From: Thermococcus alcaliphilus
GTDB taxonomy: Archaea > Methanobacteriota_B > Thermococci > Thermococcales > Thermococcaceae
NCBI RefSeq assembly: GCF_024054535.1
Contig: NZ_JAMXLV010000021.1
Location: 1 to 64,000 of the forward strand
Direction of reading: 5' to 3'
DNA: 64,000 nucleotides
Shown here one piece after another: positions 32,294-35,947 of the stretch. Every line of letters starts with the position of its first letter. The stretch's first letter is position 1. A model generated the notes under the pieces. The model was not told the DNA's origin and did not search any database. It saw only the letters and a list, made by a program, of their open reading frames with translations. The translations under genes were made by a program, and so were the position numbers.

Positions 32294-33549
32294 AGGGTGT
32301 AGTGCTCGCGGCTGGAAAGGGTGAAAGACTAAGACCACTCACAGACGATAGACCAAAAGTTATGCTCAAGGTTGCAAATAAAGCGATAATAGATTACGTC
32401 TTTGAAAATATATATCCCTTTGTTGATGAGTTCATAGTAGTTGTGAGGTATCAAAAGGAAAAGCTCATGGATTACTTAGGAGACGAATACGGTGGGAAGC
32501 CAATAACCTACGTGGAGCAGGTAGAAGGAGAAGGGACAGCAAAAGCTATCTATTCCGCAATTGAATACGTAGAAAATGAGGAGTTTTTGGCAGTTAACGG
32601 GGACATATACTTTGAGAGGGAAGGCATAAAAACTCTTTTACAGTCCTTCAGAAAAAGTAGTGCTGATGCCGCGTTGCTTGTGAAGAGGTTTGAGGATTTA
32701 ACCCATTTCGGAATGGTGGAGGTAGAGGGAGAGCTCGTAAAGAGCATTAGAGAAAAGCCCGGAGCTGTTTCCGGATACGCAAACTTAGGAATTTACTTAT
32801 TCAAGCCAGAAGTTTTTGAGTTCATAGAGAACACCCCACAAAGCCAGCGCGGAGAATACGAGATAACGGACACAATAAACCTTATGATAAAAGAAGGCAA
32901 GAAAGTAACCTATGCGGTTTATGAGGGCTACTGGAACGATATAGGAAGACCGTGGAACCTCTTAGAGCTAAACGAGTACATTCTCAAAAACCATCTCCGG
33001 CACAGTATAAAAGGTATTGTGGAGGAAGGAGCAACAATTCTCCCCCCAGTGGAAATAGGAGAGGGGACGGTTGTTAGAAGCGGATCATACATCATAGGGC
33101 CAGTGAAAATCGGGAAAAACTCCAAAATAGGGCCTAATTGCTTTATAAGACCCTACACAAGCATTGGAAACAAGTGCCACATAGGAAACGCCGTTGAAAT
33201 CAAAAACTCAATAATAATGGATCACAGCAACGCTCCTCACTTGAACTATGTAGGAGATTCAATTGTTGGAGAAAACACCAACCTAGGGGCTGGAACAATA
33301 ACGGCTAACTTAAGACACGACAACAAAACTATAAAGGTGGAAATAAAAGGCAAACTCGAAGATAGCGGAAGAAGGAAACTGGGAGCGATAATAGGGCACA
33401 ACGTGAAAACAGGAATTAACGTAACGATATATCCGGGAAGAAAAATAGGAAGCAACTCTTTTATTGGCCCAGGTGTGATAGTTGATAAGAACGTCCCTCC
33501 CAATGTGCTGGTTGTTGCTAAACAGGAAAAAGAGATTATAGAAAGGTGA
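32290..33549 (+). CDS. glmU: Bifunctional sugar-1-phosphate nucleotidylyltransferase/acetyltransferase (GlmU-like)
   Basis: A 419-residue protein. The N-terminal domain (1-240) has the nucleotidyltransferase loop AAGKGERLRPLTDDRPKVML and the metal Asp in VNGDIYF. The C-terminal half is a left-handed beta-helix of hexapeptide repeats (from IVEEGATILPPVEIGEGT onward), with NFG-like NLGAGTITANLRHD. Archaeal homologues make UDP-GlcNAc or dTDP-/UDP-sugars. The operon with UppP fits supply of lipid-linked glycans. Confidence 0.92.
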   Translation: MKGVVLAAGKGERLRPLTDDRPKVMLKVANKAIIDYVFENIYPFVDEFIVVVRYQKEKLMDYLGDEYGGKPITYVEQVEGEGTAKAIYSAIEYVENEEFLAVNGDIYFEREGIKTLLQSFRKSSADAALLVKRFEDLTHFGMVEVEGELVKSIREKPGAVSGYANLGIYLFKPEVFEFIENTPQSQRGEYEITDTINLMIKEGKKVTYAVYEGYWNDIGRPWNLLELNEYILKNHLRHSIKGIVEEGATILPPVEIGEGTVVRSGSYIIGPVKIGKNSKIGPNCFIRPYTSIGNKCHIGNAVEIKNSIIMDHSNAPHLNYVGDSIVGENTNLGAGTITANLRHDNKTIKVEIKGKLEDSGRRKLGAIIGHNVKTGINVTIYPGRKIGSNSFIGPGVIVDKNVPPNVLVVAKQEKEIIER

Positions 33550-34667
33550 GGGGAGTGGCTTTCATTCCCTACCTTAATTTCCTCTCAAGATGGTTGCTTT
33601 TCCTTGCTGTGTTTTATAAAGCCGCAAAAACTAGGGAAAAAAGATGGGGATTAATAACCGTTGCATTATTTGTAAACGCCCTTGATGTGGAAAGTTATAT
33701 CCTAACTCCTCTTGGTGTTTCCATTAGGCCAGAGGCGTATGACATTGCCTCTAAGATACCAAATTTCTTTGTAGCTGGCCTGCTAACTTGGGGAGGAATT
33801 CAGCTAAGGAAAGAGAGGAGCGAGTTTAGGGATGTTGTAACTTTAGGGATATTCGCCATTGCAGCATATATCTGGCTCTTTCTACTTGCAACGGAGTTTT
33901 TTGACAGGTTTGAACATTCATTTGCGATCAAATCATCATTTCCCAGCTTCGTCTTTGGAGCCTCCTTAATTTATGTTGGATACATGTTGAGGAACTACGT
34001 GATCTCCAAGAACACACTTGAGGAACTCTTTCCGTGGGGATTAATTCTTTTGGGAGCAATAAACTTAACATACCCGTTTACAAGAAACATTGAGTCAATT
34101 GCATCAGTGGCATTTCTGCTGGCAGCAGTTTTTCGATTAATGGCTGCAGTTGGAGCATTGAAATTTGCAATACATCCCTCCGAAATGGCAGTATTTGAAA
34201 AGCCAAAACAGCAAAAGCCTCCAGAAGTTAAGGGCGCATTTATCTTCAAAAGCAAAGAAGAACTGAAAAAACTAATCCCAAATTTCTTTGACCAAAACGT
34301 TATCATGATAACAAGAAACCCACCAAAAGAAAAAGTTCCCGAAAATACTTTAGTTTACTGGCTCACAAAAATGGAAGAGAGTAGCATCAAAGCAGACGGG
34401 AAAATCTATCCAGTCTCGCCAACGAGAATAGATATCTTGATTCATCTCCTAACCAAGAACCTTGAAAGCGGTTACAATGCAGTTTACATGGACGGATTCG
34501 AGTATTTAATGATAGAAAATGGATTTGAGAGTGCCGTTAAGTTCCTATTTGATTTGAAGGATAGAGTTGTAAGCGAGGGAAAGGTTATAGCTCTAATAAT
34601 AGACCCGAGAACCCTAACCGAGAAGCAGATGGCACTTCTAGAAAGAGAATTTAGCAACAGAATATAA
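33546..34667 (+). CDS. Polytopic membrane protein with cytoplasmic DUF835 domain
   Basis: A 373-residue protein. The first 210 residues hold about seven hydrophobic segments. After a linker (FEKPKQQKPPE), residues 230-373 form a DUF835 domain: FIFKSKEELKKLIPNFF, TLVYWLTKMEE, GYNAVYMDGFEYLMIENGF, LIIDPRTL. DUF835 is common in Thermococcales, often joined to sensor-like membrane parts; function is unknown. The GTG start overlaps the stop of glmU. Confidence 0.8.
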   Translation: MRGVAFIPYLNFLSRWLLFLAVFYKAAKTREKRWGLITVALFVNALDVESYILTPLGVSIRPEAYDIASKIPNFFVAGLLTWGGIQLRKERSEFRDVVTLGIFAIAAYIWLFLLATEFFDRFEHSFAIKSSFPSFVFGASLIYVGYMLRNYVISKNTLEELFPWGLILLGAINLTYPFTRNIESIASVAFLLAAVFRLMAAVGALKFAIHPSEMAVFEKPKQQKPPEVKGAFIFKSKEELKKLIPNFFDQNVIMITRNPPKEKVPENTLVYWLTKMEESSIKADGKIYPVSPTRIDILIHLLTKNLESGYNAVYMDGFEYLMIENGFESAVKFLFDLKDRVVSEGKVIALIIDPRTLTEKQMALLEREFSNRI

Positions 34668-34677
34668 AAAAGAAAAC

Positions 34678-35850
34678 TCAGAAGCCAAGATACTCTATAA
34701 ACCTCCTGGTGTGCTTTGTCTCTCTTTGAAGCTCCACTTTTTGGAGTATCTGCCTTTCTATGGCCCTCAAGGCATCATGAACTGCCTGTATTGCTCCCCA
34801 TGTTTCACCCGTGGCTATAAACTGCCCTTTGTCAGTCACAATTCTCATCCTTGCTTGGTAGAGGTGAACCCCGCGGAGTTTCTCCGGGAATCTCCTGATC
34901 CTAAGGTATATTATTCCTTCATTTCCGAGAAGGTCTTCATACCCCTCAACAAATCTCCTTATGTCGGAGATTATTCTCTCCCTTGTAAAGTCACTTAAAT
35001 AGTGGGCATCTCCACCAAGCTGTAAGTAGAACCTGGCCTTCTGCTCAACCATTCTTGATATTGGGAGCAGGAGATCCTTAACCGTAAGAACTCCTCTAAC
35101 TACGTTTTCATTATCAACTACAACAAGCCCATCGATGTTGTGCTCCTTCATTAACTCCACGGCTTCCCTAACGCTTGCTTCAGGCTTTATTGTTATCACT
35201 CCTCTAAACATGACTTCCCTAAGCTGAGTTGAGAACGGTGGGATTTTTTCTCCAGCTACTTCTCCAAACTGTGCTCTGAATCTGGGTTTTATAAACCTGA
35301 TAATCAGGTCGTGCAGTGTTACCAAGCCTTCGAGCTTTCCCTCTTCGTTTACAACTGGAATTCTTGAGATAGCATGATCTCTCATTGTTGCAAGTGCCTT
35401 AGCTACGGTATCATACGGTTTGAGAGTGATTACATCGCTGCTCATGAACTCTTTTACGGGTCTTTTTCCAAATTCTTCCTTGGCAACCCTCTCAAGTAGG
35501 GCAATATCGCTTATTACACCAATAACATTGTTCTTATCCTCCCCAACAGGGAGTGAACGTAAGTCAGTCTCTATCATAAGTTTAGCCGCTAAACTTAGAT
35601 CTTCATCAGGTTTTACAACGGGTGCGGGCTTGTATACATCCCTAACCTTAGCCTTTGTCGGATCCCACTTTAAGTGGGAGCGGATTATCAAGTCTTGGGT
35701 CAATACACCCTTATACAGCTTTCCATCAAAAACAACAATTAAATCCGGATCTTCTTTTTCAAAAATTCCAATCGCCTCAGAAAGGGGGGCGTTTATGTCG
35801 ATTTTTGCAAATTTTTCTGTCATAACTTCCTGGACAGAAATCCCGACCAT
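34678..35850 (-). CDS. Four-CBS protein with C-terminal HPF/RaiA-like domain
   Basis: A 390-residue protein. Residues 1-260 hold four CBS motifs (VQEVMTEKFAKIDINAPL; VRDVYKPAPVVKPDEDL; VKEFMSSDVITLKPYDT; LREVMFRGVITIKPEAS), which usually bind adenine nucleotides. Residues 265-375 have the strand-helix-strand-strand-strand-helix order of HPF/YfiA ribosome hibernation factors, ending QARMRIVTDKGQFIATGETW and AVHDALRAIERQILQKVE. An energy-sensing ribosome-inactivation factor is a good hypothesis. The start at 35850 follows GGAGGTG. Confidence 0.82.
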   Translation of the reverse strand: MVGISVQEVMTEKFAKIDINAPLSEAIGIFEKEDPDLIVVFDGKLYKGVLTQDLIIRSHLKWDPTKAKVRDVYKPAPVVKPDEDLSLAAKLMIETDLRSLPVGEDKNNVIGVISDIALLERVAKEEFGKRPVKEFMSSDVITLKPYDTVAKALATMRDHAISRIPVVNEEGKLEGLVTLHDLIIRFIKPRFRAQFGEVAGEKIPPFSTQLREVMFRGVITIKPEASVREAVELMKEHNIDGLVVVDNENVVRGVLTVKDLLLPISRMVEQKARFYLQLGGDAHYLSDFTRERIISDIRRFVEGYEDLLGNEGIIYLRIRRFPEKLRGVHLYQARMRIVTDKGQFIATGETWGAIQAVHDALRAIERQILQKVELQRETKHTRRFIEYLGF

Positions 35851-35947
35851 TCTTGACACCTCCTTCAATTTTATATTGGTTTTCATTCCATTTAAACCTT
35901 TCCGAGATAAGATTTAGTTACATTAAGTTAATAAAGTTTTCGATTGC

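Follow-up and report, generated by a model that had tools for sequence, protein, structure and literature searches.

Does this locus of Thermococcus alcaliphilus encode a ribosome-hibernation factor, and if so, of which family and under which control? It lies in the window, by which we mean the whole 64,000-nucleotide stretch analysed (contig NZ_JAMXLV010000021.1, positions 1 to 64,000), and centres on one gene, hibA. An earlier note, which placed this gene correctly at 34678-35850 and gave no strand, had described its product as a CBS protein whose C-terminal region resembles the ribosome-hibernation factor HPF. The open reading frame exists, on the minus strand, and the description holds: the gene is, with near certainty, hibA of a Thermococcaceae archaeon, coding for the 70S ribosome-hibernation factor HibA. 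The family is already known, and the gene here is an ordinary member of it. Domain anatomy, fold, orthology, copy number, conservation and promoter elements were computed here.

The identification is carried by a sequence search against solved structures, which returned the Pyrococcus abyssi chain of entries 9SR9, 9SRA-9SRF and 9T7H with an expectation value (E) of 6.5e-204. The two proteins share 311 of 388 residues (80%), without gaps, over residues 1-388. Entries 9SR9-9SRF and 9T7H are listed as HibA structures from cryo-electron microscopy of the 70S:HibA complex (Madru et al., Nat Commun 2026; PMC13324472), and the recent reports of CBS-containing hibernation factors in archaea to which the earlier note refers concern the HibA family (PMC13324472). 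HibA is defined by four CBS domains (residues 1-269) followed by an HPF/RaiA-like domain (270-392); the P. abyssi protein binds 70S ribosomes and inhibits translation in vitro, its CBS module takes up three positions on the 50S subunit, and deletion of hibA in Thermococcus barophilus delays recovery and leaves fewer 70S ribosomes (PMC13324472). Hence, the claim that such a factor shuts down ribosomes has been shown for the P. abyssi orthologue. As a separate observation, the HibA chain is labelled 'Dehydrogenase' in entries 9SR9-9SRF and 9T7H; this label misleads and could be carried over into annotations.

Both halves of this architecture can be recognised in the protein itself. The four CBS motifs noticed earlier correspond to four tandem stretches of the Pfam CBS family (PF00571, total E=3.9e-48) in its N-terminal part. 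The same part is matched at 69.9 bits by the NCBIfam model of HhpR, a transcription regulator with a CBS module from Pyrococcus yayanosii, which would fit a stand-alone CBS regulator of the HhpR (CM-3) type that acts on transcription and not on ribosomes. That score, however, is far under the 520-bit cut-off of the model (NF053603), and the protein has an extra domain of HPF fold and is a full-length HibA orthologue. Score and architecture rule out an HhpR-type regulator, which the full-length HibA match refutes, and we give it practically no weight.

The C-terminal part was assessed by structure prediction, in which residues 262-390 were folded together with two relatives in five models. The best model has a mean predicted local distance difference test (pLDDT) score of 82; three of the five models reached 81-82, and the remaining two were of poor quality, with 44 and 41. 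After a first short strand of low confidence, the predicted elements follow each other as strand-helix-strand-strand-strand-helix, the order claimed for this region in the earlier note. A Foldseek comparison of the model with the Protein Data Bank (PDB) gave 26 matches at E<=0.001, all of them chains of HPF, RaiA or protein Y type or ribosome entries carrying one, including chloroplast pY, Listeria HPF, Vibrio HPF, and Escherichia coli HPF and protein Y; the significant matches have template modelling scores (TM-scores) of about 0.5-0.8 and identities of 9-19%. By this predicted model, the HPF-type fold is confirmed, far beyond chance and independently of the HibA paper. In sequence, the domain also matches the C-terminal domain of HibA at E=1.6e-57. 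No result here contradicts the identification as HibA. The Pfam HPF/RaiA family (PF02482) has no match in the protein at E<=1 and missed the gene in a genome-wide search at E<=10; Pfam recognised the CBS part alone and found nothing significant in the C-terminal part. The failure of PF02482 is in keeping with the weak sequence similarity, in terms of identity, between HibA and bacterial HPF (PMC13324472). The only weak genomic match to PF02482 (C21:66015-66230, E=0.049, below the cut-off) belongs to another short open reading frame and was taken as chance.

The reading frame found mechanically is 12 codons longer (ATG 35886, 402 residues). We place the start at ATG 35850, since GGAGGTG lies just 5' of this codon and the orthologues begin at the same codon. 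The gene is single-copy: no other full-length match occurs in its genome, and the remaining matches are partial CBS matches with 28-38% identity. Across the taxonomic family, 60 of 61 genomes have hibA, with identities of 76-99%; all 53 good-quality genomes are among them, and the sole genome without a match is 79% complete. Among 30 aligned HibA proteins, invariant positions make up 49% of the CBS module and 60% of the HPF-like domain. In P. abyssi HibA, a loop of the CBS module extends to the peptidyl-transferase centre (PTC) of the ribosome (PMC13324472); this PTC loop aligns without a gap to that of P. abyssi, and 61% of its positions are invariant (n=30 orthologues). The coordinates of these and the other features are collected below.

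Table. Features of the hibA locus, in positions of the window
Feature	Position	Strand	Basis or remark
hibA, 390 residues	34678..35850 (stop codon within)	minus	open reading frame; 80% gap-free identity over 388 residues to P. abyssi HibA; sole full-length match in the genome
N-terminal CBS module, residues 1-269, four CBS domains	35044..35850	minus	PF00571; boundary from PMC13324472
CBS3 T-x-x-D motif, T178-L-H-D181	35308..35319	minus	T and D invariant in 30/30 aligned proteins
PTC loop RFRAQFGEVAGEKIPPFS, residues 190-207	35230..35283	minus	position from PMC13324472
CBS4 T-x-x-D motif, T256-V-K-D259	35074..35085	minus	T, K and D invariant in 30/30 aligned proteins
C-terminal HPF/RaiA-like domain, residues 270-390	34678..35043	minus	best Foldseek matches all HPF/RaiA/protein Y
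Shine-Dalgarno sequence GGAGGTG	35857..35863	minus	sequence; seen in all listed upstream regions
Proximal promoter element AGGTTTAAAT, similar to a transcription factor B recognition element (BRE) and TATA box	35890..35899	minus	first base 49 nucleotides upstream of the start codon
Palindrome TTTATTAAC-TTAAT-GTAACTAAA, probable Phr heat-shock operator	35913..35935	minus	1 mismatch to TTTANTAACN5GTTANTAAA
Distal BRE/TATA-like element CGAAAACTTTATTAA	35928..35942	minus	overlaps the palindrome; sequence and comparison of upstream regions
Gene for a probable membrane protein with C-terminal DUF835 domain	33546-34667	plus	convergent with hibA
Gene for a probable membrane protein of 216 residues	35948-36598	minus	upstream of hibA

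Whether the protein senses adenine nucleotides, as had also been proposed, has a divided answer. The T-x-x-D motif is a signature of adenylate-binding CBS pairs, and here it occurs in CBS3 and CBS4, whereas this spacing is missing from CBS1 (T-x-D) and CBS2 (S/N-D). The pattern agrees with the site reported for P. abyssi HibA, whose CBS module binds adenosine mono-, di- and triphosphate (AMP, ADP and ATP) between CBS3 and CBS4, AMP with a dissociation constant of 12 uM (PMC13324472). Binding has been shown in the orthologue. Its consequence for the ribosome is a different matter: AMP was without effect on the classes of HibA bound to the ribosome and ATP had little effect (PMC13324472), so a coupling between nucleotide and ribosome is not established. 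That HibA senses the energy state to shut down ribosomes is best regarded as a hypothesis.

Orthologues are the source for the binding of ribosomes and nucleotides, for the inhibition of translation and for the deletion phenotype, and by analogy the protein here would act as they do. Its CBS module would occupy transfer RNA sites on the 50S side, at the PTC, uL5 or the L1 stalk, and the protein would keep the 70S ribosome idle and protected under stress and allow a later restart; the CBS3/CBS4 pair would bind AMP, ADP or ATP. In summary, the observation made from the sequence is confirmed, and its interpretation is supported except for the nucleotide coupling.

The genes on either side add little to this function. 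The DUF835 gene stands beside hibA in most of the Thermococcaceae loci compared, with identity falling to about 32% while HibA stays near 80%, and the upstream gene, whose product has no Pfam match, is kept in the nearer relatives only. A conserved functional neighbourhood was considered and rejected, as neither gene suggests a ribosome-linked function. The neighbourhood also bears on a possible second job of HibA as an AMP-responsive partner of replication and recombination proteins, which would limit the HibA free for ribosomes. Pull-downs do link Pab0961/TK1186 (HibA) to such proteins (cited in PMC13324472), but the case consists of pull-down reports, and the conserved neighbours of hibA give no hint of DNA metabolism. 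We consider this second job unlikely.

The upstream region holds a consistent promoter picture. In 30 of 31 upstream regions (window counted), AGGTTTA[AT]AT is found at -47 to -51, and this conserved proximal TATA-like box lies 36 nucleotides downstream of the start of a palindrome. The palindrome pattern TTTANTAACN5GTTANTAAA occurs within 3 mismatches in 26 of 30 related upstream regions, which are not independent, being related to each other and including two (L010 and L022) whose genomes are identical or almost so; none of 200 shuffles per region was as good. In relatives, its halves are largely kept and the N5 spacer varies. Among the 30 regions it was not seen upstream of hibA in L017, L018 and L021, which form one branch, or in L028. 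Sites of the same class lie directly before the Hsp20 and PbaA-like genes of this genome, PbaA and HSP20 of Pyrococcus furiosus are Phr-regulated (PMC10746257), and hibA has been reported to be under Phr control (PMC13324472). The palindrome is thus a probable Phr operator, at which Phr would repress the distal hibA promoter. Genome-wide, the pattern at 3 mismatches is only mildly enriched (33 places versus 22 for the control), and the case for a Phr site therefore rests on conservation in relatives and known Phr targets rather than on genome counts. Four places in the genome match best, with 1 mismatch. Those at hibA and the PbaA-like gene alone have a known Phr link; the other two (L042 and L043) lie before genes that are transporter-like in one case and kinase-like in the other. 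It is possible, although we hold it somewhat doubtful, that hibA in Thermococcaceae is transcribed from a stacked pair of promoters, of which the proximal would be basal and the distal would have its TATA region under the Phr operator. Both TATA-like boxes, like the palindrome, are conserved. We did not find this layout of hibA described in the literature. If it is true, derepression on heat shock would add a burst of hibernation factor.

A Phr-like palindrome also accompanies clustered regularly interspaced short palindromic repeats (CRISPR). At all four occurrences of GATAGTAAC-N5-GTTACTAAAGA in this genome (L049, C14:18919; L050, C18:127292; L051, C20:289064; L053, C23:14027), it lies about 370 base pairs from the nearest repeat of a CRISPR array, and of four loci examined in relatives, three show the same distance (also L057, L058 and L060). 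It occurs in 14 of 61 family genomes, and a reversed control pattern gave no match. Its halves are kept while its spacer varies, which gives it the look of a binding site for a protein, Phr or another regulator, at the leader's far end.

The window adds one more HibA orthologue with a consistent promoter picture. The closest known systems, HibA of P. abyssi (Q9UYR4, Pab0961) and of T. barophilus (F0LKU5), agree with the protein here in length, in the order of their domains, in the PTC loop and in the fold of the C-terminal domain, and that of P. abyssi shows ordinary orthologue divergence only, at about 20% of residues. More distant in sequence is a CBS domain-containing protein in PDB entries 9l96/9l98/9l9c/9l9v, which aligns in both its CBS part and its C-terminal domain (E=3.8e-35 over the full length; the C-terminal domain by itself gives 2.5e-9); a literature search gave no paper that could be tied to these entries. 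Dri of Thermoproteota and HhpR of P. yayanosii resemble HibA in that a long loop is inserted in their CBS modules (PMC13324472), but neither carries an HPF-like domain; Dri contains two CBS modules, and HhpR regulates transcription. Bacterial and chloroplast HPF, RaiA and protein Y share the fold of the C-terminal domain at the low identity given above; PF02482 misses the domain here, and bacterial HPF/RaiA, unlike HibA, are without a CBS module. HibA extends HPF-type ribosome hibernation to Archaea and joins it to an AMP-binding module.
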